Below, one piece after another: positions 1-21,697 of a stretch of 22,211 nt of DNA. The first letter of the stretch is position 1. The number at the start of each line of letters is the position of its first letter. The DNA comes from a virus. The position numbers and the translations under genes were made by a program. The notes under the pieces were generated by a model. It saw nothing but the letters and a program-made list of their open reading frames with translations. It did no database searches and had not been told where the DNA came from. The stretch spans positions 1-22,211 of IMG/VR virus record IMGVR_UViG_3300027917_000186. One strand, given 5' to 3'.

Positions 1-630
1 AGTAGTTATACTGCTTGTTAGTGTGTTTGTACCCGTGTTCAGTAAAGATGCTCCATAAACAGTGGGGTCATATATGTACTGACCCAACGAACCAACACTA
101 TAGCCCCATCTTGGCTCTGTAGGTTTTCTAAGGTAGTTTACGGTAACCCCTGAATTTATACTATCTGGCTTAACATATACCCTTTCATTTTCGTAAAGGT
201 ATGTTGGAAAATATTTTGTCGATGCTGTAAGTAATGACCTCTGTATATTATAAAAGTCATGTCTCTGCAGTCTCTGAAGTTCTACTTGATTTCCATTTAT
301 ACCAGTGTAAACCACTGTGCCTAAACGATATAGGTCAGATGGTAGTGTATAATATGGTGTGTTTGGGGTTGTAATATTGTCGTATGTTGCGTCACCGAAA
401 GCCTTGAATATAGAAAGCTTTTCGTCTGTGTTCATTATTCTGTCTGAATAATCAGCGTCTGCCTGCGGAACACGAATCTGTTGGTTTAGTTCTTCTGCAT
501 AGCCTTCAAACATTTGCAGTTGAACTTGATTGGCTATTTTATTGAACTCATTAGGTGTAACATAACCTCTCTGTTCCTTATTAAGAATCAGTAATGCGGT
601 TTTATATACCTCGTTAATGTTTATAGCCAT
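1..630 (-). CDS. Virion structural protein, candidate head-tail connector (partial, runs off the left edge)
   Basis: The frame is open from an ATG at 630 to the window edge, giving 210 codons with no stop, so the C-terminus is missing. The start reads MAININEVYKTALLILNKEQ, and the next section includes GYVTPNEFNKIANQVQLQMF and a YxLPSDLYRLGTV stretch. This N-terminal pattern resembles proteins I recall from crAss-like and flavobacterial phages, encoded shortly after the major capsid gene and annotated as structural or connector/ring-type proteins. It is the first gene past the capsid gene and its 286-residue neighbour, which is where connector genes usually sit. The start follows an A/T-only leader (AAATAAAT) without a Shine-Dalgarno sequence. 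A structural role is likely. The exact role (adaptor, ring or stabilising protein) is a guess. Confidence 0.6.
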   Translation of the reverse strand, partial: MAININEVYKTALLILNKEQRGYVTPNEFNKIANQVQLQMFEGYAEELNQQIRVPQADADYSDRIMNTDEKLSIFKAFGDATYDNITTPNTPYYTLPSDLYRLGTVVYTGINGNQVELQRLQRHDFYNIQRSLLTASTKYFPTYLYENERVYVKPDSINSGVTVNYLRKPTEPRWGYSVGSLGQYIYDPTVYGASLLNTGTNTLTSSITT

Positions 631-656
631 ATTTATTTTTTATTAATTATAAAGGC

Positions 657-679
657 TAGGTCAGTTTTATTCTGACCTA
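657..679 (-). terminator. Intercistronic hairpin, possible weak terminator
   Basis: A perfect 8-bp stem, TAGGTCAG with CTGACCTA, encloses a 7-base loop. It lies just downstream of the 286-residue gene, which stops at 704, and upstream of the next start at 630. On the minus strand only a short, broken T run follows, so it may attenuate transcription or protect the mRNA 3' end rather than fully terminate. Confidence 0.5.
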
Positions 680-703
680 ACCTATATAATATATATTACG
701 TTG

Positions 704-1564
704 TTACATTAGTTTTTTCTCGATAGATGAAAATATTTCCATACCCTCGTCTGTCTTGAAAAATGAAGCCATAGCTGAGTATGGGTGTTCATCAAATGGA
801 ACGGTCATTAACTTTCTACCATTGCTGGCCCATGTAAATGTACGTTGGTCTTGAGATAATTTAATGATACCTTGTTCAGCCGCTTTAATTGCAAAGTTTC
901 TAAGCTGAATGTTATCATCTAGTGCTAGACTAATAAACAGTCTTGGATTACTTTTAGCTAGTATCATAATGTCTCTTCGTATCTCTTTACTTGTCATCTT
1001 AGAAACACTTGAACCCTTTTCAGCTCTAAGTATAGCCTCTGCATGGTCGATGTCAATCTCCCTTGCGGCTGTCATTGCCTCAAGCTCAGTCTCTAAATCC
1101 TCTAGTCCATATTCAGCCTCTTGTACAGGGTCAAACTCTGTATATAGTTTATCCTTGTGTGGGTGATATAAAGACAATAACTTTTGAAGTGACTGCTTCT
1201 CTTTAGGTACATTCAGAACACCATCTTTAAAAACGATGTGTTCCATTGTTACGGAGCCATTCTGCTCATCTACGAAACAACTTTTCTGATTTGTTGCGTA
1301 CCGTATTTCTCTCTGAGAGTTTGTCTCAGGGTCAAACCACAGTAGTGGATGCCTTGGAGTGTGTTTACTTGCCAATGTATAAGTTAATGGTGACTTACCT
1401 CCTGTCAAATAGTATTGACGGGACTTAATCTCCCATTCATCTTTCTTCTTGGTTTCTTTTACTTCAACTGGTTCAGGAGCTACTGGAGCTTCAATTACAG
1501 TTTCGTTTTCTTGTACAACCTCATCTACTTGAGATTCTGTTGTTGTTTTTCTAGGTCTTGCCAT
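704..1564 (-). CDS. Conserved capsid-neighbour protein of unknown function (286 aa)
   Basis: The first 40 residues are low-complexity and charged, rich in Val, Glu and Pro, and are probably a disordered arm. A compact region follows from about residue 44, beginning DEWEIKSRQYYLTGGKSPLT, then the blocks HTPRHPLLWFD and REIRYATNQKSCFVDE. The middle is an acidic helical stretch (about 143-180), and the rest is a mixed helical domain. I recall similar proteins directly after the major capsid gene in crAss-like and related Bacteroidota phages, but no biochemical function. It lies between two hairpins, so its expression may be set separately from the capsid gene. The start at 1564 follows an A/T-only leader (AATTATATTATATC). 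A minor capsid, head-lining or connector-associated role is possible. No enzyme motif is visible. Confidence 0.6.
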   Translation of the reverse strand: MARPRKTTTESQVDEVVQENETVIEAPVAPEPVEVKETKKKDEWEIKSRQYYLTGGKSPLTYTLASKHTPRHPLLWFDPETNSQREIRYATNQKSCFVDEQNGSVTMEHIVFKDGVLNVPKEKQSLQKLLSLYHPHKDKLYTEFDPVQEAEYGLEDLETELEAMTAAREIDIDHAEAILRAEKGSSVSKMTSKEIRRDIMILAKSNPRLFISLALDDNIQLRNFAIKAAEQGIIKLSQDQRTFTWASNGRKLMTVPFDEHPYSAMASFFKTDEGMEIFSSIEKKLM

Positions 1565-1597
1565 GATATAATATAATTAAATAGTTTAAAAAAAATA

Positions 1598-1630
1598 AAA
1601 CTTGGGGCCACACAACATGACCCCAAGTTT
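1598..1630 (-). terminator. Rho-independent terminator after the major capsid gene
   Basis: A perfect 10-bp stem, AAACTTGGGG paired with CCCCAAGTTT, encloses a 13-base loop. On the minus strand it is followed by TTTTATTTTTTTT, a classic U-tract. It begins 14 bases past the capsid stop codon at 1644 and is the strongest terminator in the window. It may let the abundant capsid mRNA end here, with partial readthrough to the next gene. Confidence 0.85.
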
Positions 1631-1643
1631 ATAAGATTAATGC

Positions 1644-3173
1644 TTACGCAGTAGCCTTGAACAACACGAAGTTGTTAGCAGCCTGAGTAACCAAACAACG
1701 CTCAGAAAGGAAATGAACCTTCATTACGTCTTCTCCTGAAGTAGCAGCACCACCTACAGAACCTGTAATCCAAGACTTCATTCTTCGGTCATCAGCTTCA
1801 GAAGCACGATAACGAGCGTGAAGGAATGGTCTACGAATGTTAGTACCTAACATCTGGTCGTAAACGGTAGTTGTTCCAGCAGGAACCAATACACCCTCTA
1901 TGTCTCCTGTAAGACCACGAGTAGAAGCATCGTTAAGATATTTCCAATCAGTCTTGTAGAAGTCATAAGAACCTCTTCGGAATCCAGAGAATCCTAAGTT
2001 CAGAGCCATTTCAGAGCTGTTCTCGAATACTCCGTAAGAAGTACCACCAGCACCGTAAGAGTTCTGAGCAGCAAGCATATCGTCCATGTCTAGTGACGTA
2101 GCACGATTTAAGAAAAGCATATTCTCCTCAATAGCACCCTGCTTGTCAAGGTTAGCTAGAATCTTGTCGAAATCAGCTAAACCAGTAGCAGCAGTGAAGT
2201 TGTTATACACGTTTCCTCGCTCCTCGATAGCAGCAAAAAGACCTTGTGTACCTTTCACGTTAGCACTAGCACTACCTCCAGCTAGTTGTCCGATAGCAGC
2301 AGAAGGAGTACCTGCTCCATCAACATCAGCAGATGCAAGCTCACCTTCTACAGAAACCATCTCTAGGTAATCCTGAAAACGTAGACGAGTCTCGCCTTCA
2401 GCCTTCAAGTACCAAAGGTATCCAGAAAGTCCAGCCTCATCAGTAACTTCAACCCAACCAATTTGAGAAGCGTCAGAACCTGAAACCTCATACTGGTCTT
2501 TGATGATTACTGGGCTATTGTTGTACTGAGTGAATGATGGTGTAATAGAACCAGTCATAGAGTCAGTACCCTTACCAAATTCAGAGCCGTACACGAAGAT
2601 TTTAATCTCTCCACCGTTAACATCGTTACGAACGGCATCCAAGTTAGCAGCAGTGTAAGGATATGCATTAAGCTTCCAGTTGTTTCCTGGAGAGTTACTT
2701 ACAGGCTCTGCAGCAACAAAACACTTGAGAGAGTTTAGGCTTACCGTGTTGTAAACAACAATAGTAGAACCAGCTCGGATAATAGGTTGAATAGACGCTC
2801 CAGCAGAGTTTTCACCAGCTACATCCTGAATCAAAGTTGTACTACCACCAATAGTAATATTTGATGCGTTAGCAGGTACCCCACTACCACCCATACCACT
2901 CTCGAAAGAAAGGTGTAGACGGTTTTGCTCAGACCAAATAACTTGGTCAGAAGTCATTGGCATCTCAGCCCCAACCATACGAAGAAAACCAGAGATTGTA
3001 CGGTTACCGTAACGCTCTACTTCAGCTTCATAGATTTCAGGTAGATACTGCTGTGCGAAGTCGTTTCCGCTTCCATCAGCAAAGTTTAAATAAGAACCTT
3101 GAGTAATACTCTTAAATGGAGTAGGTACCAAGGAAAACGAACCCAACGGGTCGTTAGTTGCAAATGTTCCCAT
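1644..3173 (-). CDS. Major capsid protein, HK97-fold (509 aa)
   Basis: This is the likely building block of the icosahedral head. The N-terminus reads MGTFATNDPLGSFSLVPTPF and is followed by QQYLPEIYEAEVERYGNRTI and a FLRMVGAEMPMTSDQVIWSE stretch. Length and sequence style match the major capsid proteins I recall from crAss-like and marine Bacteroidota phages. The neighbours agree: a scaffold-like gene ends 7 bases upstream, with portal and large terminase before it. The gene is richer in G+C than its neighbours (one sampled 60-base line gave about 47%, against about 30% in the scaffold gene and 38% in the portal gene) and its early arginines use CGT, both consistent with selection for high expression. 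The strong terminator just downstream fits this. No catalytic motif is expected. The fold is inferred from family resemblance, not shown by any motif. Confidence 0.85.
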   Translation of the reverse strand: MGTFATNDPLGSFSLVPTPFKSITQGSYLNFADGSGNDFAQQYLPEIYEAEVERYGNRTISGFLRMVGAEMPMTSDQVIWSEQNRLHLSFESGMGGSGVPANASNITIGGSTTLIQDVAGENSAGASIQPIIRAGSTIVVYNTVSLNSLKCFVAAEPVSNSPGNNWKLNAYPYTAANLDAVRNDVNGGEIKIFVYGSEFGKGTDSMTGSITPSFTQYNNSPVIIKDQYEVSGSDASQIGWVEVTDEAGLSGYLWYLKAEGETRLRFQDYLEMVSVEGELASADVDGAGTPSAAIGQLAGGSASANVKGTQGLFAAIEERGNVYNNFTAATGLADFDKILANLDKQGAIEENMLFLNRATSLDMDDMLAAQNSYGAGGTSYGVFENSSEMALNLGFSGFRRGSYDFYKTDWKYLNDASTRGLTGDIEGVLVPAGTTTVYDQMLGTNIRRPFLHARYRASEADDRRMKSWITGSVGGAATSGEDVMKVHFLSERCLVTQAANNFVLFKATA

Positions 3174-3179
3174 AGTTTA

Positions 3180-4346
3180 TTAATTTTTGAACTTGTTTTT
3201 ATTAATTTTAAGTTTTGAAGAGTCGATACCGTTGACGGCCTTAACCTTTAAACCATTTATAAACAGACTATCGTTTGACGTTTGTCTAGGTGCTTCACCC
3301 GTTATGTTCTTAGACTTAACAGCGACCTCCTTGATAGCGTCAGCCTTACCCTGTTCGTAAAAGTGTGAGGCAATTTTGTCAACATTTTGGGCTGCGTACA
3401 TTGCTTTATGATACTCGTCAAATCTTTTTACATTACCACCTTCATCGAGAAACTTTCCCAATATGTTGTTAATGCTAGATTGAGTATCGGCAATTGATTC
3501 TGGATTACTTACCCCGTATCTAAACTTCTTTTCTCCTACGTTAAAATCAAAACCTTTGAAATCGTTTTGGAAAAAATCTTTAGTTTTAGATTTGAATAAA
3601 CTTCTAGATTCTTCAGCTTGTTGTTCACTCTCCTTGTAGCGATTAAAAAAGTCCATTGCTTTTCTTTGTTCGTTGGATAACGTGGGCCTCGACTTGATTT
3701 CCTCGTAGTATTTATCCTTCAAATCATTTAGAAATGAATGGGCTTTTGAAACCTCTTCTTTTTGAGCAAGTTTTTTTCTCTTGATGTCTCGCTCATCATC
3801 AAGGTCTTCATCGTAACGAAAGTTTTCTTCCATTACAAAATCTATTTCCTCATCGTCAAGATGTGGTTTTGTTTTCTTATAGTACTCTCTTAGTAGTGTT
3901 TCTTCATCTACGTTTGAGTAGTCTGTATTTAATCGGACATAGTCCTGTAGGTCACCACCTGTTTCGTTAATAAACTTTACTAGCTTATCTACACCATCTG
4001 GTAGGTTTATCTTAACCTTATCCTCTGTCTGTTCAACAATGGGTGCTACCTCTTCTTTTTCAGTAATCTCCTGTATTACTACTTCCCCTTCTTCTGACTT
4101 ACCCCCATCATCTGAACTGGTGACTTCTTCGGAAGTGCTTTCAGATTTTGGTTCGGGTGTTCCTTCCTCCACTTTTTGTACAACTTCGGAAGGTTTATCC
4201 TCATGTACGTCATTTGTGCTTTGCTCTTGAACGGCATCTTCTTTTTCTTTTAGTTCCTCTTTCTTTTTAGAAAGGTCTAACTTGGTTACTGTTTCTTTAG
4301 CCTTCCTGGGCTTGACTTTTGACAAGTCTACTTTTGTTTCCGACAT
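3180..4346 (-). CDS. Scaffold-like head assembly protein (388 aa)
   Basis: This is probably an internal scaffold for prohead assembly. The first 110 residues are low-complexity, very rich in Lys, Glu, Ser and Val, and look disordered. A conserved-looking helical block follows from about 117: LPDGVDKLVKFINETGGDLQ, then DYSNVDEETLLREYYKKTKP and an acidic, then basic, coiled-coil stretch to about 235. The C-terminal part is helical and ends in a Lys/Asn-rich tail, which is typical of a capsid-binding end. It lies between portal and major capsid genes, the normal place for a scaffold. I see no protease motif, so any scaffold cleavage would need another enzyme. The ATG at 4346 has an A/T-only leader. 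It could instead be another internal head protein, but scaffold is the best fit. Confidence 0.7.
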   Translation of the reverse strand: MSETKVDLSKVKPRKAKETVTKLDLSKKKEELKEKEDAVQEQSTNDVHEDKPSEVVQKVEEGTPEPKSESTSEEVTSSDDGGKSEEGEVVIQEITEKEEVAPIVEQTEDKVKINLPDGVDKLVKFINETGGDLQDYVRLNTDYSNVDEETLLREYYKKTKPHLDDEEIDFVMEENFRYDEDLDDERDIKRKKLAQKEEVSKAHSFLNDLKDKYYEEIKSRPTLSNEQRKAMDFFNRYKESEQQAEESRSLFKSKTKDFFQNDFKGFDFNVGEKKFRYGVSNPESIADTQSSINNILGKFLDEGGNVKRFDEYHKAMYAAQNVDKIASHFYEQGKADAIKEVAVKSKNITGEAPRQTSNDSLFINGLKVKAVNGIDSSKLKINKNKFKN

Positions 4347-4373
4347 AATAATATAATATATAATTGTTTAAAA

Positions 4374-6779
4374 TCATCTTGGCTCAAATTGCTCTAAACC
4401 AATACCACCCAACACATCGTTTCCAGAGGACTCAAAGTCTGTTGGTAGCAAGTTGTTTTTTCTTTGGTTGATGAGTTCACTCTGTTGAGTACCCTGCATC
4501 TTAATTCTTTTATCTTTTCGGTCCTCTATCTCTTGTTCTTTTTGACCCTCAGCATTAGCCCTTACTTGAGCTAACTGCATGTTAAAGTTAAACTCAGCTT
4601 GCATCAACTCTCTCTTAATCTCAGCTTCAGCTCTAAGCCTTTGTATTTCAAACTGAGACTTAGCTTGCTCTATGTTAACCTTTTCTTGTGTTAACGCTTG
4701 TTGTTTTTGAACCTCAGCAAACGCAGCCTTTTCAGCAGCCTCAGCATTAGCTTGAGCTTGAGCTTGAATGTTTTGCAACTGAGCCTGTCTATCGGCCTCA
4801 ATCTTTTTCTTTCTTTTCTGCTTTAATATCTCGTTAGCAAGCTTTATGTTCTGTATCTCTCGAATGTCTATAACATCCTCTATGTCGATACCACCACTCT
4901 TTAATGCAATCTGTATGTTTTGTTCAAGCTGTGCTTTTTCTTCATCCTCTGGCTCAAGCTCTAGGTATATACCAAAGTCATGTAGGTGTAATTTACTTAT
5001 TTCTTGAAGCGTACCTACATTGTATGCACTTATTGCCTCCTGAAGTGAGTTGTTTGTCAATGCAAACTCAATAGAATCTGCAATCCTTAGAGATATGTTT
5101 TCGCACGTTCTAGCGGATAAATAAAGGCTAGACTGTAGTATGTGTCGTGTCGCTACATTTGATGCGTTAGCGGCAAGCTTTTGAAGTCCTACAAGCGTGT
5201 CCTCCATAGGTGCGCTACCGTCACGAGCTTCGTTAAGCCCTGTGACATCCCTAATCATTTGTAAGTAATACTGATAGGTGTTAATTAATGCCGATAACTT
5301 TGCCTGACCGTTTGATGAACTTAGTTCCTGTATAGGAACCTTACCTCTATTCATATCACCATCCTGTGTCAGAGACCTACCTAGTATACTACCCGTTTGG
5401 AAGTACATGTTCAAAGCCTCTTGGGGATTATAACTTGTACCATTACCCAAATCCACCTCTGCTAATCCATCTACATCTAGGTATACTCCGTCTGGGACCA
5501 ACTTAGATATGACCTGCTGTATCTTTAAGTTTGTAATATTTATCATATCAGCAAACCCAGTAATCTTACTTACCGTTGACTCTATCCTACCCTTATACAT
5601 TCTTGGGGCAGAGATAGCGTAATTCATATTGACCTTTGTTGTGTCAGCGTATGGCCTTGTCATATTCTCTGACAGTCTCCAATCAATCATTTGGTCGTAT
5701 CCAAGAATCTTAGCACCAGTGAACAACACCTCTATAGTCCTAGACACTTTCTTAAATGTGTCCGATGGTGGTGGGTCAAAAGAATCTGTCTTTTCTATAA
5801 CCTTCTCAAGACCATTACCAGTTTGCTTTAACTTAAACACCTGATTCATATACGTCTTGTACTCAAAGTATAAAACCTGAACTGTGTTCTCGTCATAGTC
5901 GTTCCAACCAACAACATAGTCGCTTCTGTTACCCATCTTAGATATTCTATCTAACTCTTCCTCAGAAATAAATGGGTACTGCTTTTTAAGTTCTGGTATT
6001 GTTATAGACTTAACCTCACCAACATAGTAAATATCATCAAAGTTTGGGTCCTCAGTATACGACCAAACCATTTTAGCTGGGTCACAGTAGTTTACTACAA
6101 CACCCTCAGCCTTGTTCCAATCAGTTTTTACCGCAGCAATACCAAGAACTGTTAAGTCATGGTTCAATCTTCTCCTTATCAGCTCAAATTTATTCTTATC
6201 CAAGGTATTATTTATAACCTCTTCTTCAGCTATCTCTATGGATGGCTTGTACTTGAGTTGCATGTGGATAGATATCTCCTCCTCTGTTTCTGGAAGATTG
6301 CTTTGGTCTGGGGTACTGTACAGGTCTAGCCCCATCATCTGCTTTATTTGTTCTATCTCTGCCTTAGCGGTAATATCCCGTAGTAATCCAGATGCGTAGT
6401 TTGTTCTTTTCTTTATAGACTCTGGGTCTTGAGCATAAGCATTAATCTTATACTTCTTCTCCGACATACCATTAACAACGATGTCAACAAACTTAGATAT
6501 AACTGGTACTGGCTTCCAGTCTAAGTTAAGGTATGATAGGTCACCGTTAATAGATAACTCATCCTTATACTTCTGTATTGGCTGCTCACCTCTAGCGTAA
6601 AGCCTTAGGTTGTGGTACTTGTTCCAATTAGTTGCAAACCTGTTACCGCTTCTCCCACCATGAAACCACTCACCCTCTATAGCCCTCCCTACTTGAACGC
6701 CATATTCAAAGCTCTTTTTCTCCTCATCGCTAACGACTTGGCTTGGGAACGAACTATTTGGATTTGTACTTATATTCAT
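4374..6779 (-). CDS. Portal protein (801 aa)
   Basis: The portal forms the dodecameric ring at one head vertex through which DNA is packaged and ejected. The evidence is size, position and sequence style: it overlaps the large terminase gene by four bases (ATGA) and precedes the scaffold and capsid genes. A mixed alpha/beta body covers about residues 20-640, with recognisable stretches such as DWKPVPVISKFVDIVVNGMS and a region around RDVTGLNEARDGSAPMEDTL. The last 150 residues hold a long Gln/Ala/Glu-rich coiled coil (about 650-770), then an acidic tail ending in EQFEPR. This long C-terminal coil matches portals I recall from crAss-like phages and would be expected to project into the head as a barrel. 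Translation is likely coupled to the terminase. Confidence 0.85.
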   Translation of the reverse strand: MNISTNPNSSFPSQVVSDEEKKSFEYGVQVGRAIEGEWFHGGRSGNRFATNWNKYHNLRLYARGEQPIQKYKDELSINGDLSYLNLDWKPVPVISKFVDIVVNGMSEKKYKINAYAQDPESIKKRTNYASGLLRDITAKAEIEQIKQMMGLDLYSTPDQSNLPETEEEISIHMQLKYKPSIEIAEEEVINNTLDKNKFELIRRRLNHDLTVLGIAAVKTDWNKAEGVVVNYCDPAKMVWSYTEDPNFDDIYYVGEVKSITIPELKKQYPFISEEELDRISKMGNRSDYVVGWNDYDENTVQVLYFEYKTYMNQVFKLKQTGNGLEKVIEKTDSFDPPPSDTFKKVSRTIEVLFTGAKILGYDQMIDWRLSENMTRPYADTTKVNMNYAISAPRMYKGRIESTVSKITGFADMINITNLKIQQVISKLVPDGVYLDVDGLAEVDLGNGTSYNPQEALNMYFQTGSILGRSLTQDGDMNRGKVPIQELSSSNGQAKLSALINTYQYYLQMIRDVTGLNEARDGSAPMEDTLVGLQKLAANASNVATRHILQSSLYLSARTCENISLRIADSIEFALTNNSLQEAISAYNVGTLQEISKLHLHDFGIYLELEPEDEEKAQLEQNIQIALKSGGIDIEDVIDIREIQNIKLANEILKQKRKKKIEADRQAQLQNIQAQAQANAEAAEKAAFAEVQKQQALTQEKVNIEQAKSQFEIQRLRAEAEIKRELMQAEFNFNMQLAQVRANAEGQKEQEIEDRKDKRIKMQGTQQSELINQRKNNLLPTDFESSGNDVLGGIGLEQFEPR

Positions 6780-12772: not shown

Positions 12773-13114
12773 TTAAACGGGTATTTTACCAAAAGGTACC
12801 CCACCTTTATTATATGCTTCCTTTTCCCAAGGCTCTTTACCAGTCCCCATCATGTTCAATGAACGAGAGTACTTCTTCCCCTTCCAATAGAAGTTAGGGC
12901 CATCCCAATCTAAGTCACCTCTCTCGATTTGGTCAACATGGACCTTTTCGTGTTTGATGACTGCATCGTGATACTTTGGGTCAAGGTCTTTATTTAATAG
13001 TATGGTACCGTTCTTATTGGTTCTACCAAGAACAGACTCCTCTTCTTTAAAGTCATTTAAGTATACGGCAGGCCCGTTAAGATTGTATGGTGGCTTGTCT
13101 AACTTAAATGCCAT
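12773..13114 (-). CDS. Small putative zinc metallopeptidase with HEXXH motif (113 aa)
   Basis: The sequence shows HEKVH at 55-59 within DAVIKHEKVHVDQIERGDLD, which matches the HEXXH zinc-binding motif. A downstream Glu in EPWEKEAY (E97 or E99) could be the third ligand. A GTILLNKDL strand precedes the helix, as in many minimal metalloprotease-like domains. I recall small proteins of this pattern in marine Bacteroidota phages, without known substrates. The segment LNMMGTGKEPW carries the NMMG core repeated in neighbouring proteins. The gene shares one base with the upstream gene (TAATG). Possible roles are head maturation cleavage or cell-wall access during entry. The enzyme call rests on the motif alone; the substrate is unknown. 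Confidence 0.55.
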   Translation of the reverse strand: MAFKLDKPPYNLNGPAVYLNDFKEEESVLGRTNKNGTILLNKDLDPKYHDAVIKHEKVHVDQIERGDLDWDGPNFYWKGKKYSRSLNMMGTGKEPWEKEAYNKGGVPFGKIPV

Positions 13115-14067
13115 TACTTTCCTTTTTTACCTTTCATCATAGGCTTCTTACCATACATACTAGCACCTTCGATTTTATTCAATCGTCTTTCTTGTCTAGC
13201 TTTACGTCTTTCTTCACGTTTTTCTTGTCGAGCTTCTTTAGGAGTTTGTGGGTCATCACCACTTACAATATTAGCTGCTTTTGCGACAACCCTACCAGGT
13301 GTCATAGCTATGTCTTTTAGGTTTTCCAAATGCTCATAAGCATCTTTCCTATTAGCTTTTTGCATCTTACCAATACCCATCATGTTAGCACCATCTCCAT
13401 ACATGTTACAACCTCGACCACCCATATGCTTAGAGATTGAATTACCCATCATGTTAGCACCTGTACCCTCTTCAGCCTCTTTTCTATCTCGTCCTTTACC
13501 AAAAGCCTTTCCAGCTAGTCCGCCAGCTATTGCCCCAAAAGGTCCAGCGGCTAACATACCATATCCAGCCCCAACAAGCGCACCTTTTGTTTCTTTTTTA
13601 CCCATACCCAATAAATCTGGTCCTTTTTCTTTTCCAGTCATCTTTGCTCCTTTTAATGTTTTTCCTGTTTCTTGTATTAATTTATCTAACACATTCATCC
13701 CTTTTTCTTTTAATTCCTTACCAACACCTGTCTTACCAAATTCAGTAATATCTTTTTTGAGTGACTTTTTCTTTTTCATTGAAAATCCCTCTGAGAAACG
13801 CTCTCCAGCACCCAAGCTTTCAATACCAGATAATGTTGGCTTTACATATGGTGCAAGAAAACTAGCAATAGTAACAGCCTCAGTAGCTCCAAAATTAGGC
13901 CCCTTGCCGTACATACTAGCACCATCCTTGTCAGCTCTTTCGTTTTCTAGGTAGTGTAGCCTAGCCTCTGGGCTTAGGTTTTTGTTGTACGCCATAGATT
14001 CATCGTACTTTCTTTCAGCTTTTTTAGCTTTTCTTTTGGCTTTTGCAGCCTGCATTTTTGCTTTCAT
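13114..14067 (-). CDS. Basic protein with repeated GxNMxG motifs and a glycine zipper (317 aa)
   Basis: I do not recognise this gene. The N-terminus (1-25) is Lys/Ala-rich. Short glycine-flanked motifs recur: GASMYGKGPNFG (49-60), KGPDLLGMG (148-156), GANMMG (203-208), GCNMYGDGANMMGIG (219-233) and GASMYGKKPMMKG (301-313). A glycine-zipper-like hydrophobic stretch at about 163-190 (ALVGAGYGMLAAGPFGAIAG onward) could insert into a membrane. Residues 275-298 are strongly basic. The mix of basic arms, zipper and repeats would suit an internal virion protein that leaves with the DNA, but this is inference. The repeats are also visible in the DNA, with two identical 18-base copies about 69 bases apart. 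It lies between the lysis genes and the HEXXH gene. Confidence 0.5.
   Translation of the reverse strand: MKAKMQAAKAKRKAKKAERKYDESMAYNKNLSPEARLHYLENERADKDGASMYGKGPNFGATEAVTIASFLAPYVKPTLSGIESLGAGERFSEGFSMKKKKSLKKDITEFGKTGVGKELKEKGMNVLDKLIQETGKTLKGAKMTGKEKGPDLLGMGKKETKGALVGAGYGMLAAGPFGAIAGGLAGKAFGKGRDRKEAEEGTGANMMGNSISKHMGGRGCNMYGDGANMMGIGKMQKANRKDAYEHLENLKDIAMTPGRVVAKAANIVSGDDPQTPKEARQEKREERRKARQERRLNKIEGASMYGKKPMMKGKKGK
13151..13923. repeat. Short dispersed repeats encoding the GxNMxG/GxSMYG motifs
   Basis: ACCCATCATGTTAGCACC occurs at 13375-13392 and again at 13444-13461. CCATACATACTAGCACC at 13151-13167 has a one-mismatch partner at 13907-13923. A shorter related copy (ACCCATCATGTT) lies at 16097-16108 inside another gene. 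Read on the minus strand in frame, they encode GANMMG and GASMYG. Confidence 0.7.
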
Positions 14068-15586: not shown

Positions 15587-16030
15587 TTAAAAACCCCTTG
15601 ATTCTTCAGAGCCGTAAAGACCACCAAACAACTCGGTCATTTTATCATTTTTTCTATTCGACACTGGGTTCACACCCGTTATTTTTTCAAGCTTGTTGTA
15701 TTGAGCCGCATCTTTTAATTTACCACCGCCCTCTCTAATTCCCCCAAGGCCTCCCTTCGTAAACAAATCTTCATTTTGCTCTCTAAAATAATCAGCCTGT
15801 GCTGCATTTACATTGCCAGAGTTAACCATTTTAGCCTGCCTACGCAACTCAACCTGTTGTGGGTCAATCGCTGGTGTTTCTTGAGATGGTGTTTCTAATT
15901 CTGGAGTTGGTGGTGGTGGTGGTGGTGCCGCTGCTGGTGTGGGTGTCTGTCCAGTAACCGTATTAACTAAGTTGCTAATTATATTGCTGTTACCAAATAA
16001 ATTTGGGCCTTTTTCTTTTCTTGTTTTCAT
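15587..16030 (-). CDS. Pro-rich small protein with GPNLFG motif (147 aa)
   Basis: I do not recognise this gene. The N-terminus MKTRKEKGPNLFGNSN carries a variant of the glycine-flanked motif of the neighbouring proteins. A Pro/Ala-rich linker follows at about 31-56, including six consecutive prolines from a (CCA)6 tract, and then a helical polar half (VELRRQAKMVNSG, QADYFREQNEDLF) and a Gly-rich C-terminus. It shares one base with the gene before it (TAATG). The shape is a short tag, a flexible linker and a small helical body, which would suit an accessory virion protein attached through its N-terminus. This is inference. No enzyme or membrane motif is visible. Confidence 0.45.
   Translation of the reverse strand: MKTRKEKGPNLFGNSNIISNLVNTVTGQTPTPAAAPPPPPPTPELETPSQETPAIDPQQVELRRQAKMVNSGNVNAAQADYFREQNEDLFTKGGLGGIREGGGKLKDAAQYNKLEKITGVNPVSNRKNDKMTELFGGLYGSEESRGF
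15909..15926. repeat. Trinucleotide tract (GGT)6 on the plus strand
   Basis: Six GGT units encode a run of six prolines (CCA codons) on the minus strand. Unit gain or loss would keep the frame and alter linker length. Confidence 0.85.
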
Positions 16031-16530
16031 TAGTCCCTCCTCATTTTTTTAGGTCCAGAGCTATATCTTTTTGCTCTATTCAATGCCCTGTCTATACCCA
16101 TCATGTTTACACCTTCTTCGTCAGAGCCGTAACCCATTGATTCAAGCCTTTCCATTCTATCCTTTCCAGGACCCCTAAGCTTGCCAGCGGCCTCTCTTGA
16201 CTTTAGTCTAGCTAATTTTTTCTCTTGTCTGTCCTCAAACTTACCAGCCCTTTTTTCTTGGTTGTATTTCATTTTCTTTTCTCTGTACTCTAGTCTAGCT
16301 AATTGAGCAGAGTGGCCTCTCTCTTTTGCTATCCCTTTTCTTATATCTATTTCATCCTGACTTGGTAGTAAGGTTCTAATAGGATATTTCTGCATACCAG
16401 ATGAACCATAGTTTGTTTGCAAATCATTAGTACCAGTGCTTGTATCCAATGAATCAGGGCTATTGTACATGTTTGTGATGTCCAAATTTCGGTAACCACT
16501 CTCTCCTACATATTTTTTGTTATCTGCCAT
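16030..16530 (-). CDS. Basic helical protein with a GVNMMG motif (166 aa)
   Basis: I do not recognise this gene. The first 60 residues are polar and low in charge (NLDITNMYNSPDSLDTSTG). From about 68 to 118 there is a strongly basic, helix-favouring stretch (EYREKKMKYNQEKRAGKFED then RQEKKLARLKSREAAGKLRG), which could bind nucleic acid or form a coiled coil. The segment EEGVNMMGIDRALNR (138-152) repeats the motif found in the 317-residue protein downstream. The C-terminus is basic (GPKKMRRD). It shares one base with the next gene and begins 25 bases after the winged-helix gene. A DNA-associated or internal virion protein is possible; the sequence does not decide. Confidence 0.5.
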   Translation of the reverse strand: MADNKKYVGESGYRNLDITNMYNSPDSLDTSTGTNDLQTNYGSSGMQKYPIRTLLPSQDEIDIRKGIAKERGHSAQLARLEYREKKMKYNQEKRAGKFEDRQEKKLARLKSREAAGKLRGPGKDRMERLESMGYGSDEEGVNMMGIDRALNRAKRYSSGPKKMRRD

Positions 16531-16554: not shown

Positions 16555-16995
16555 TTACTTGTTTTTATCATTATTCGCAGAAATAATTGATTTAGATAAA
16601 ACTTTATCCATATAACTCCTGCCTAACATAATTTTATTATGGGTGCTAGTAGGTAAATCCTCATGCCCAAGCATTATCTTATATATCTTGTTTGTTAGCT
16701 GCTTAGTCCTTAGAGAGACCTCGTACACATGGTACTTCTGTGTTGTGTGGTTTCTTTTTCTCCAAACCACAATCCAACCGTTCTTGAGTAACCTATCCCA
16801 CCTTCTCTTGTCCCAGCTATAGGAAAACACGCCAGTCTCATAATCCCTCTTAGTGAACCTACCCTCACAGTCTAGGTATATTAAAAGTTCTAGGTCAGAG
16901 TCTGATAAACCATTTGTTTTACAGGCCCACTTCCTTATTGTTCTGTAATGCTTTAATAGGTTTATATCCTTCAGAGTCTGTGGCTCTATCCTCAT
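16555..16995 (-). CDS. Winged-helix (MarR-like) protein, possible late regulator (146 aa)
   Basis: The protein is helical with a winged-helix pattern. The block HYRTIRKWACKTNGLSDSDL (about 16-35) leads into LELLIYLDCEGRFTKRDYE, then WDKRRWDRLLKNGWIVVWRK supplies a recognition-helix-like segment and a basic wing, followed by YHVYEVSLRTKQLTNKIYKI. I recall close relatives in flavobacterial and other marine phages, annotated as MarR-like or winged-helix proteins. It overlaps groES by four bases (ATGA), so it belongs to the chaperonin operon. It could regulate this operon or late genes, but winged-helix proteins can also act in assembly. No effector domain is visible. Confidence 0.65.
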   Translation of the reverse strand: MRIEPQTLKDINLLKHYRTIRKWACKTNGLSDSDLELLIYLDCEGRFTKRDYETGVFSYSWDKRRWDRLLKNGWIVVWRKRNHTTQKYHVYEVSLRTKQLTNKIYKIMLGHEDLPTSTHNKIMLGRSYMDKVLSKSIISANNDKNK

Positions 16996-17252
16996 AAAAC
17001 AACAACAACGTCAAACTCCTTTATCACCTTGTATACCACACCCTTTATCTCCATGTCAAAGCCAGCGTGTCTGTCGTAATAAACCGTGTCACCCTCAGTG
17101 ATACCTTCAACAAGGTTACCAACCTTAGATACTGTGGCCTCTCTGTATCTTATATCATCCTTATGGGCATCAGATAAAATTAATCCACTCTTAGTTTTAG
17201 TGACCCCCTCTTTTATTGGTTGGATGAGCATGTACTTACCTATAGTCCTCAT
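16992..17252 (-). CDS. groES: Phage GroES-type co-chaperonin without roof hairpin (86 aa)
   Basis: This is the lid that would close the GroEL chamber for protein folding in the cytoplasm. It has the GroES order: strand YMLIQPIKEG (7-16), mobile loop about 15-33 with the hydrophobic triplet LIL at 24-26 that docks on GroEL, then EATVSKVGN, GDTVYYDRH and the final VVYKVIKEFDVVVV. Between VGN and GD there are only seven residues, where E. coli GroES has sixteen, so the roof beta-hairpin appears to be missing, as in phage T4 Gp31. That would leave a more open dome. It overlaps groEL by four bases (ATGA) and the winged-helix gene by four. Its place after groEL reverses the common bacterial order. 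Confidence 0.85.
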   Translation of the reverse strand: MRTIGKYMLIQPIKEGVTKTKSGLILSDAHKDDIRYREATVSKVGNLVEGITEGDTVYYDRHAGFDMEIKGVVYKVIKEFDVVVVL

Positions 17253-18790
17253 TTTTGTCTAAGATTGTTGATTACACAATTTGTAGACATAATGGTCGTA
17301 GACACAGACACAGCGTTCTTCAATGCACTCTTGGTTACAAGCAGTGGGTCAATGATACCAGCCTTTATCATATTGACAATTTTACCTGTTTTGACATCGA
17401 CCCCATATCCAGTCCTCTTGTCGTAGATAATATCATCGTACTCACCATTTATCATAATAACCTCGTAAGGCTTTCTAATAGCCCTTAAAAGGCTTTCTTC
17501 GACCTCATTTACAGCCTTAACTTTATCAGACGCATTTAGTAGTGCTACGCCACCACCTGGGAGTATTCCCTCCTTTATGGCGGCTCTTGTTGCACAGATA
17601 GCGTCTTCAACTCTATCACTCTTTTCTTTTAGTTCTACTTCAGAGTTGGCTCCAACCTTTATTACCGATACTTTACACGATAGTATGGCAAGTCTTTTTT
17701 CTAGTTGTAACTTCTTGCCTGGAAACTTTGTTTCTTCTATCTGAGACTTAACTAGTTCTACAAGCTCCTTTACCTCATCATTCAGCTCATCAACCTCAAT
17801 GATTGTCTCCTCCTTGTTTGTTATAGCCTTTGAGCATTCACCCAAGTGTTCTGGTTGTATAAGGTCCATATCGTCACCAAGGTCTTCGTTGATTACCGTT
17901 GCTCCTGTGATAACAGCTAGGTCCTGCATTCTTTCCTTCCTGTTGATACCATAGTCTGGTGCGTCAACAACATTAACCTTTATGTTACCCTTTATCTTAT
18001 TCATCGCTAAAGCAGAAACAACCTGCTCATCAGCGTCACCGATTATAAGTAACTCCTTGTTGTTCTTTATGACGTAAGCGAGTATCGGCTCTATCTTCCT
18101 TATGTTCTCTATCTTGTTCTCTACAATAAGGACCAGTGGGTTGTTTAGTACACAAGAGCCACTATCCTTGTCTGTGATAAAATGAAAGTTCTTTAGTGGC
18201 TTATCTAGTGTTGCGCCATTAACAACCTCAAACGATGTACTCTCGTCTCTAGAAATTTCCATTGTTACAACACCACCCTTACCAGAGGCATTAAACGCAG
18301 ATGATATTATCTCACCCAGCTCTTCGTCATTGTTTGACGATATCGTGGCAACGTGTTTTAGCATGTCACCACTCACATCTATAGCTCTATCCTCTAAGTA
18401 TTTTATTACCTTAGTGGTGGCTGAGTTTATACCAGCCTTAATCTCTCTTTCACTAAACCCCTTAATTTTTTGTGCCTCACTTATAATTGAGTGTGCAAGT
18501 ATGGTGGCTGTGGTTGTACCATCACCAGCCTCTTCCACCGTCTTTTTTGCGGCTTGCTTTAATAGGGTTGCACCCATGTTTTCAACTGGGTCTATCAATG
18601 TAACCGCATTAGCTACAGTAACACCGTCCTTTGTTACCACTGGTTTTCCAGAGCTGTCCTCTAAGAGTACACATTTACCACTAGCCCCAAGCGTTGAACT
18701 CACTGCCAAGTATAGTTTATCTATACCATTAAAAACATTTTCCCTAGCCTCATCACCGAAGCTAAGGTGTTTAATTATATTGTCTGACAT
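17249..18790 (-). CDS. groEL: Phage GroEL-type chaperonin (513 aa)
   Basis: This ATP-driven folding chamber has intact equatorial ATPase motifs: TKDGVTVA with D55, GDGTTT at 89-94 with D90, and the late VEDAICATRAAIKEGILPGG block with the third conserved Asp. These match E. coli D52, D87 and D398. The apical domain is recognisable (TLDKPLKNFHFITD, APDYGINRKERMQDLAVITG). The protein ends at STTIMSTNCVINNLRQK, lacking the C-terminal GGM-repeat tail of most bacterial GroELs, which explains its shorter length. It is strongly diverged from typical Bacteroidota GroEL, so recent capture from a host is unlikely. It is translationally coupled to groES. A natural substrate is the phage capsid protein, as with the T4 system, but this is inferred. 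The leader is A/T-only. Confidence 0.93.
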   Translation of the reverse strand: MSDNIIKHLSFGDEARENVFNGIDKLYLAVSSTLGASGKCVLLEDSSGKPVVTKDGVTVANAVTLIDPVENMGATLLKQAAKKTVEEAGDGTTTATILAHSIISEAQKIKGFSEREIKAGINSATTKVIKYLEDRAIDVSGDMLKHVATISSNNDEELGEIISSAFNASGKGGVVTMEISRDESTSFEVVNGATLDKPLKNFHFITDKDSGSCVLNNPLVLIVENKIENIRKIEPILAYVIKNNKELLIIGDADEQVVSALAMNKIKGNIKVNVVDAPDYGINRKERMQDLAVITGATVINEDLGDDMDLIQPEHLGECSKAITNKEETIIEVDELNDEVKELVELVKSQIEETKFPGKKLQLEKRLAILSCKVSVIKVGANSEVELKEKSDRVEDAICATRAAIKEGILPGGGVALLNASDKVKAVNEVEESLLRAIRKPYEVIMINGEYDDIIYDKRTGYGVDVKTGKIVNMIKAGIIDPLLVTKSALKNAVSVSTTIMSTNCVINNLRQK

Positions 18791-20472: not shown

Positions 20473-20811
20473 TTAGTATTTACCTCTCCTGTTTTTTGGG
20501 GAGGATTCGGTGGAACCACCCTTTCCAGCCCATAAATTTTTACATGCCCAGTACCTTGCTGTAAGTTTATCATTGGCTGTACTGCATTTATGCCGTGCCT
20601 TGAAGCTTTTTCTGGCTGCATCACTGTAATTATGCCCATATCCAGAGGCCCCGAAGTGTATTATCTTCTCTTTCCCCCCAGAACACGCTTTAACCATCTT
20701 TTTCTTGCCAGGTCTAGAGGATTTTGTGGGTTTATTGCAGGCCATTTTGGATTTATCCACCATGTTTGGACCTACACCCTGCACCCTTCTACTCAGCCAT
20801 GTACTATTCAT
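20473..20811 (-). CDS. Small basic Cys-containing phage protein with duplicated N-terminal tag (112 aa)
   Basis: I chose ATG at 20811, in a TGATG junction with the preceding stop; a GTG one codon earlier is also possible. The N-terminus MNSTWLSRRVQGVGPNMVDK shares its opening with the upstream gene. The rest is basic, with four cysteines in KMACNK, VKACSG, ARHKCST and YWACKN, and a conserved-looking block SFKARHKCSTANDKLTARYW. I recall this FxARHKC...ARYWxCK pattern in small proteins of cyanophages and other marine phages, some considered virion parts. The cysteines might bind zinc, but the spacing is not a standard finger. It precedes the fibre-like gene by 20 bases. Function is unknown; a DNA-contacting or head-associated role is plausible given the charge. 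Confidence 0.6.
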   Translation of the reverse strand: MNSTWLSRRVQGVGPNMVDKSKMACNKPTKSSRPGKKKMVKACSGGKEKIIHFGASGYGHNYSDAARKSFKARHKCSTANDKLTARYWACKNLWAGKGGSTESSPKNRRGKY

Positions 20812-20817
20812 CACTTT
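20787..20817. repeat. 31-base direct repeat, copy 1
   Basis: This segment matches 21401-21431 with one mismatch in 31 bases. It spans the stop of one gene, the TGATG junction and the first nine codons of the next. Confidence 0.9.
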
Positions 20818-21425
20818 GTTTTATTTGGTTTTAATCCTGGAAAGCTTCGATACATTTGTTCATCTGAAAGCCCTTTTCGTTTTTTATATTGATATGCTGG
20901 TTCCTGTTTACCACTTGTACCCATAACTGTTTGGGTTAACATTTTCATGTTTTCTCTACTTTTCAGCTTTTTGGGGGTAGTCGACTTGCTTTTTAACTTA
21001 CCTATAGGCATCTTTTCTAAACTCTGAAGCATTACCTTTTGTTTTGGTTTATCATATAAAGGAAACTCTTTTACTGTTTTATTATTACTACTAATAATTC
21101 TTGAAGGTTTCATTTTGGTCTGACTGGCATAATAATCATAGGGCCAGCTCTTTGAAGTTGTTAAACTTGGGGTATTTGCTGGAACTATATTGGCAGACTT
21201 AGTTTTGAAAGTGTTATAGAGATTATAACCTCTGTTGGCCATGAACTCTTTTTCAAAATAATTAGTAAGTAAATGAGCATCTAAGCTATCACTGTACGCC
21301 TGAATCCTTGGGTCGTCACGGTCATATGTTACATAAGGTTTTACACCCTTACTATTTTTCTTTTTAACGGGGTCACCCTCTGCGTTTGGGCCTTTTATTT
21401 TTCTACTCAGCCATGTATTATTCAT
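20811..21425 (-). CDS. Basic polar protein with duplicated N-terminal tag (204 aa)
   Basis: I do not recognise this gene. I chose ATG at 21425, in a TGATG junction with the upstream stop; GTG one codon earlier would add one residue. The opening MNNTWLSRKIKGPNAEGD mirrors that of the next gene (MNSTWLSRR...GPNMVD), with the same start signal in the DNA. A block PYVTYDRDDPRIQAYSDSLD (about 31-50) may be a small helical element. The remainder is Lys/Ser/Thr-rich, without membrane segments, and looks largely disordered apart from a helical DSLDAHLLTNYFEKEFM stretch. It belongs to the tight run of small basic genes. An internal or accessory virion protein is the most reasonable guess; no function can be assigned. 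Confidence 0.5.
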   Translation of the reverse strand: MNNTWLSRKIKGPNAEGDPVKKKNSKGVKPYVTYDRDDPRIQAYSDSLDAHLLTNYFEKEFMANRGYNLYNTFKTKSANIVPANTPSLTTSKSWPYDYYASQTKMKPSRIISSNNKTVKEFPLYDKPKQKVMLQSLEKMPIGKLKSKSTTPKKLKSRENMKMLTQTVMGTSGKQEPAYQYKKRKGLSDEQMYRSFPGLKPNKTK

Positions 21426-21431
21426 CACTTT
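21401..21431. repeat. 31-base direct repeat, copy 2
   Basis: This is the partner of 20787-20817, 614 bases away, with a single C/T difference. It covers the end of the 90-residue gene and the first nine codons of the 204-residue gene. Confidence 0.9.
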
Positions 21432-21697
21432 TTCTCTGATTTTGTTCCGTTACCGTCATTACCACGGTTCTTTTTTATTGATTCAAACCGACCATCCTCG
21501 TGGTCGTAGTCTCTTTCTGCCATCCAAGCCTTAGCTTTACTCAAGGAACCTAGTTTGGACACCATTTCAGTTAGTTTAGCCCTACGAATCCTTTGGTTTT
21601 CAACCCTCTTCTTCTTTCTAGCTGGGGTCATTGCTATTTTATGGTCCCTTATAGCCTTAGTTTTGGCCGCCTCTGGACTTAACTTCTGCTTTCTCAT
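21425..21697 (-). CDS. Small highly basic phage protein (90 aa)
   Basis: The N-terminal two thirds are very basic and helical (KLSPEAAKTKAIRDHKIAMT, PARKKKRVENQRIRRAKLTE), consistent with nucleic-acid binding. The C-terminus has a distinct block, DYDHEDGRFESIKKNRGNDG, then NGTKSEKK, a pattern I recall in small proteins of uncultured marine phages. It overlaps the preceding gene by four bases (ATGA), and its stop forms a TGATG junction with the next. It could package with DNA in the head or act as a small DNA-binding factor. No defined fold or catalytic motif is visible. Confidence 0.55.
   Translation of the reverse strand: MRKQKLSPEAAKTKAIRDHKIAMTPARKKKRVENQRIRRAKLTEMVSKLGSLSKAKAWMAERDYDHEDGRFESIKKNRGNDGNGTKSEKK

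Follow-up and report, generated by a model that had tools for sequence, protein, structure and literature searches.

Genes and repeat at the locus

Three adjacent genes on the minus strand form the locus described here, which lies in a window of 22,211 bases that is a complete IMG/VR virus record and carries its long genes on this same strand. Gene C (21425-21697) encodes a protein of 90 amino acids and is a conserved upstream neighbour, adjoining gene B in the relatives L085, L086 and L084 and being fused to it in frame in L083. Gene A (20811-21425) encodes a basic protein of 204 amino acids, mostly disordered by prediction, and gene B (20473-20811) a protein of 112 amino acids assigned to phrog_7595, with a weak match, under the cut-off, to DUF5754 (Tlr6F). 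Proteins A and B both begin with a short peptide that we call the tag: MNNTWLSRKIKG in A (21390-21425, minus strand) and, in B (20764-20811, minus strand), the 16-residue N-terminal extension MNSTWLSRRVQGVGPN, which precedes the usual start methionine of the family (codon 17, MVDKSK).

The DNA around the start of these tags is repeated. A repeat search of the window returned one 31-nt family with copies at 20787-20817 and 21401-21431, 30/31 identical (97%) and spaced by 614 nt; read on the minus strand, either copy is AAAGTGATGAATA[A/G]TACATGGCTGAGTAGAA. It is the longest repeat of the window with at most one mismatch, the runner-up measuring 21 nt and the maximum in 60 Markov-1 resamples 22 nt. 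The repeat is genuine and well above the chance level, and the two positions and single-base difference given by a first-pass annotation of the window are borne out by the search and the resampling. Both copies span a gene junction: the upstream gene ends, its stop overlaps the next start in TGATG, and the codons for MN[N/S]TWLSR follow. Copy 1 (21401-21431, minus strand) joins the end of gene C to codons 1-8 of gene A (MNNTWLSR), and copy 2 (20787-20817, minus strand) the end of gene A to codons 1-8 of gene B (MNSTWLSR); sequence and ORF translations agree at both junctions with the layout that the annotation had described. Copy 2 is also a 31/31 nt match to the sole copy present in the relative L088/L086. 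According to the annotation, the shared start is followed by basic residues and GPN, after which the proteins become unrelated. This proved correct: A continues with KIKGPNAEG and B with RVQGVGPNMVD, and in BLASTP residues 1-12 alone align (8/12 identical, E 1e-4; next match E 24).

Profile matches place the portal gene product of the window in phrog_6547 and its virion structural protein in phrog_13704. The closest isolates for the latter protein are Manatee Spring podovirus, Maribacter phage Panino, Flavobacterium elemo phages and Cellulophaga phages, none of them reaching 60% identity. The phage is a marine one related to phages of Flavobacteria-like hosts, the host type being judged from these closest isolates. 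It also encodes a GroES and GroEL pair (16992-18790), relatives of which occur in most B-bearing loci.

Families of genes A and B

Close relatives of the locus (L083/L001, L084/L002, L085/L087 and L086/L088) were collected by a pattern scan and a gene C search. A GroEL tree unites the window with L083-L086 in a single clade (97/100), in which L086 (96%) and L085, both without A, are nearest to the window, the branching order among these three not being fixed.

Residues 17-94 of B match the phrog_7595 profile with an E value of 5.8e-16. Against Pfam PF19058 the score was 18.4 bits (E 0.0022), and because the gathering score of 27.4 was not reached, we file B as phrog_7595 and call it DUF5754-like, not a Pfam-grade member. 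DUF5754/Tlr6F (PF19058) has members in polinton-like viruses, giant viruses and phages (PMC4642659, PMC12220804), and the body of B groups with the phage members of this uncharacterised family and of phrog_7595. Relatives of B are encoded on at least 588 IMG/VR stretches. Tagless DUF5754 relatives outside the clade start at MADKSKM or similar, which corresponds to codon 17 of B, and B starts 16 residues earlier; the (M)xDKSKM start is a habit observed among the relatives collected and no curated family criterion. Since the tagless homologues start near Met17 of B, its tag is a 16-residue extension gained in the clade. Unlike members of DUF5754/Tlr6F outside the clade, B thus has an N-terminal extension, and it occupies another genome position, after C. 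The B gene of the L089 group has no tag and is placed elsewhere, downstream of an M15 peptidase gene.

In the structure model of B, residues 1-16 are predicted to be disordered (pLDDT below 50) and residues 21-50 belong to a folded core (pLDDT 82-88). Comparison with the PDB gave no fold match (best E 0.81), and comparison with BFVD matched only phage and giant-virus proteins of mostly unassigned function. A weak sequence match of B to ribosomal L7A (E 0.009) was judged compositional and set aside.

Evidence of selection on the tag comes from its codons. Between the window and L087, L088 and L002, codons 2-16 of the B tag differ by 0-1 nonsynonymous changes (about 35 sites) and 3-4 synonymous ones (about 10 sites); the sole departure in this stretch lies in the first codons of L083. 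As the changes are mainly synonymous, the peptide is translated and kept by selection. Maintenance of the B tag peptide by purifying selection is therefore supported, in agreement with the selectable peptide that the annotation had proposed. Within IMG/VR, patterns of the form TWL[SN]RK[VI]..G, which fix some codons and can miss other codings, had no matches beyond this clade and the L089 group.

Homologues of A were reached by way of the gene C search and then a search with the A1 profile, which found them only in L089/L090/L091, one phage group. Two adjacent A paralogues of 277 and 228 amino acids are located before gene C in the L089 group, and gene A is 45% and 38% identical to the L089 proteins. 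The paralogues start with MQTWLNRKIQGPRQVG and MMRQTWLNRKINGPRQVG, each having an N-terminal QTWLNRKI.GP tag, and the A family therefore has a tag of its own. No relatives of A were found in isolate phages or in bacterial and archaeal genomes, and an exact 8-mer peptide search of IMG/VR with A gave no match. The structure model of A is poor, with low confidence throughout (pLDDT 51), and was left out of the fold search. Two weak Pfam matches, both under the cut-off, were rejected: one of A to SduA_N (E 0.015) and one of the 108-amino-acid gene D to DUF4171. In a 3052-amino-acid protein of G003 (L135:81-9239), one stretch resembles the C-terminal end of a paralogue from the A family (E 7e-10).

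Empty site in relatives and origin of the repeat

All four close relatives have C joined directly to a tagged B, in L083 by an in-frame fusion; each has one tag, and A is absent. The contig of L084 begins with TCAGAGAAAAAGTGATGAACAGT..., 14 nt before B, and thereby matches the end of C followed by tagged B. The extra unit of the window (20818-21431, minus strand) measures 614 bp and consists of one repeat copy and the body of A, its ends sliding anywhere inside the repeat. When this unit is removed, the window aligns without a gap over 611 nt to L087 (555 identical, 91%) and to L088 (571 identical, 93%). The empty sites and the gapless match after removal of the unit therefore identify A as an extra gene. 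On the favoured topology of the GroEL tree one gain stands against at least two losses, and A is most simply explained as a gain in the lineage of the window.

In L083 (G001:50681-51247), the stop of C is lost and its reading frame runs on into tagged B, so that a fusion of 188 amino acids containing KGTKSEGPNMMGQTWLSRKVQGVGPNMVDK results. The tag of L083 has a copy of GGTCCAAACATG on each side.

The start of A carries traces of two sources. Its codons in the window are AAT ACA TGG CTG AGT AGA AAA ATA AAA GG, those of B in the window and in L086 are AGT ACA TGG CTG AGT AGA AGR GTR CAG GG, and those of A2 in L089 are CAA ACA TGG TTA AAT AGA AAA ATA AAT GG. Codons 1-8 of A are like those of the B clade through AGA and the later codons like those of the A family, in a comparison that offers only about four synonymous sites and few informative bases. 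Given the peptide and the codon usage of the window, the probability of the same six codons is 0.0016, and CTG, common to both tags, accounts for 7% of the Leu codons of the window; the DNA itself was therefore copied or exchanged, beyond the peptide alone. The 5' end of A looks chimeric, as would fit an exchange inside the tag or a conversion of the tag. Gene conversion of the tag following an independent insertion would give an identical appearance.

We consider it likely that the repeat is a recombination scar, left when the extra gene A was placed between the conserved genes C and B by an exchange inside the common N-terminal tag. The donor would have carried a tagged A and, behind it, a second tagged gene, an arrangement seen in A1-A2 of L089; the closest homologues of A are 38-45% identical to it. 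If this donor recombined with the resident junction of C and tagged B, both crossovers falling in tag sequence, exactly one unit of tag and gene would be inserted, correctly aligned with the coupled start at TGATG. The first-pass annotation had preferred the copying of a translation start and peptide tag onto a new gene. Applied to A, this part of the proposal does not stand, as the A family is already tagged (TWLNRKI-GP) and B is tagged in the four relatives that lack A. The gain of a tag does hold for B, as an earlier event, given the start of the tagless homologues near Met17; A would have entered at the junction of C and B by tag exchange.

The main alternative is that the order C, tagged A, tagged B is ancestral and that recombination between the tag repeats removed A from the relatives. 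We think it rather unlikely. An exact deletion between direct repeats would leave the same gapless empty site, the B tag could have been derived from the adjacent A gene, and A-family genes do adjoin C in the L089 group, but on the favoured GroEL tree separate losses are needed in L085/L086 and in L083/L084. Moreover, within the window one tag differs from the other at 1/31 nt, as against 0/31 (L088) and 2/31 (L087, L002) between the B tags of relatives and that of the window, so that gene conversion would have to be assumed for a pair of long standing. The annotation had also raised, and disfavoured, a gene duplication in which A was copied from B, or B from A, and diverged except in the first codons. 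Duplication is not supported, and the downstream alignment that the annotation proposed revealed no full-length homology between the two proteins, with the tag present in relatives. A and B lack similarity past residue 12, the family of A is a separate one found in the L089 group, that of B has many members, and B is present without A in four relatives. Such a duplication is hardly credible, despite the common start and the adjacency that give the pair the look of a tandem duplication.

Two further readings concern the repeat itself. The tag peptide might be functionless and the repeat only a recombination or translational-coupling element at the DNA or RNA level, a view to which the coupled TGATG stop/start within the repeat and the apparent use of the repeat in the exchange lend something. 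It is nevertheless improbable: the changes in the B tag are mostly synonymous, the L089 group keeps the tag peptide with other codons, and in L083 the module lies in the frame of the C-B fusion, without a stop. Insertion of a mobile element with target-site duplication is very improbable. A target duplication of 31 nt would be long, neither a recombinase nor a nuclease is encoded in the unit (nothing in it matches a recognised family above the cut-off), and the duplicated DNA is coding, in frame with the gene of the insert, whose homologues already have the tag. Direct repeats do flank the insert and the relatives have an empty site, but A-family genes with their own tag occur in L089 without target duplications (one case).

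Comparison with known systems and possible role of the tag

Insertion of A at the tag resembles known phage module exchange, in which the swap takes place at a short common sequence at gene borders, and differs from it in that the common sequence of the window codes for a conserved peptide on different proteins. A comparable case is gene 68 of Island3, compared with Brujita, both Cluster I mycobacteriophages: a small extra gene without homologues lies between conserved neighbours, its end and the adjacent gene have 18 residues (about 50 bp) in common, and the authors infer short-repeat recombination, by insertion or deletion (PMC3029335). In keeping with exchange of this type, the extra gene of the window is flanked by short direct repeats and its relatives have a gapless empty site. 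The common stretch is C-terminal in Island3/Brujita and N-terminal, including the start codon, in the window; unlike gene 68 of Island3, A has homologues that bear this tag, and purifying selection acts on the peptide. The event adds a variation to the phage mosaicism known from short common sequences, and its interesting part is the clade-specific N-terminal peptide common to the two proteins. The locus makes phage mosaicism readable at a defined site, where the empty site, the filled site, the A-family source and the chimeric join can all be followed in the sequence, and it offers an N-terminal peptide common to unrelated proteins and maintained by selection.

A flexible N-terminal peptide common to small basic proteins, as the models predict it, suggests docking on a common partner. 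The tag may thus be a short flexible docking peptide that brings small basic proteins to this partner (the virion or its precursor is a plausible one), much as the capsid targeting sequence of T4 does. The internal proteins of T4 are diverse and alike only in this conserved sequence (PMC3012670); the short conserved N-terminal peptide on the otherwise unrelated A and B resembles them in layout, which alone is compared here, membership not being claimed. A capsid-targeting role for the putative tag is possible by this analogy, and its docking on the virion is a tentative suggestion that we hold with some doubt. The B domain is found within the minor head/DNA pilot family phrog_220 (E 7e-15). 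This link, and that of an A paralogue to the 3052-amino-acid protein of G003, are hints that may point to the particle. Should the tag indeed guide proteins to the inside of the virion, this would account for the addition of cargo genes without loss of delivery, and relatives of Flavobacteria phages would offer a directly testable counterpart to the internal proteins of T4. A common peptide would at the same time keep the tag DNA similar enough for recombination.

The motif G[PASV][NSK][MLA].G occurs eight times in the window proteins, against 0.46 expected from shuffles. It is found as GANMMG, GASMYG, GPNLFG and GPNAEG in four proteins without evident homology (13114-14067, 15587-16030, 16030-16530 and 20811-21425, minus strand), and it is also enriched in the relatives G001-G004. 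The copies mostly differ in codons between genes, and most are therefore no recent DNA copies. A related module, GP[NSK]MQGSW[IM]RKH, is present in neighbouring genes of three relatives. L087 (1282-1572) and L088 (603-893) carry a gene of 96 amino acids between E and C, in which an EF-hand-like DMNKDGRLSKEDF occurs together with the module GP[NK]MQGSWIRKHINGAGPNAEG. The single match to GSW[I/M]RKH beyond the clade, in L136, was attributed to chance, no gene related to those of the window being present there.

The broadest reading would make MxxTWLSRK(V/I) a tag for virion targeting or docking, specific to the clade and passed among unrelated phage proteins, its DNA doubling as a recombination handle, and would assign the GPNM.G-SW[I/M]RKH modules to the same address system. 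Taken as a whole this is unlikely and is offered as speculation; were the mobile tag real, new cargo genes could be inserted with tag and translational coupling already in place.

Separate observations concern G005 (63,566 bp, L094/L097). About 4.9 kb of its start recurs at its end, the genes of 312-5081 appearing again from 59010, and this genome is therefore terminally redundant despite its classification as linear. It also carries a family of 75-amino-acid genes in tandem copies.
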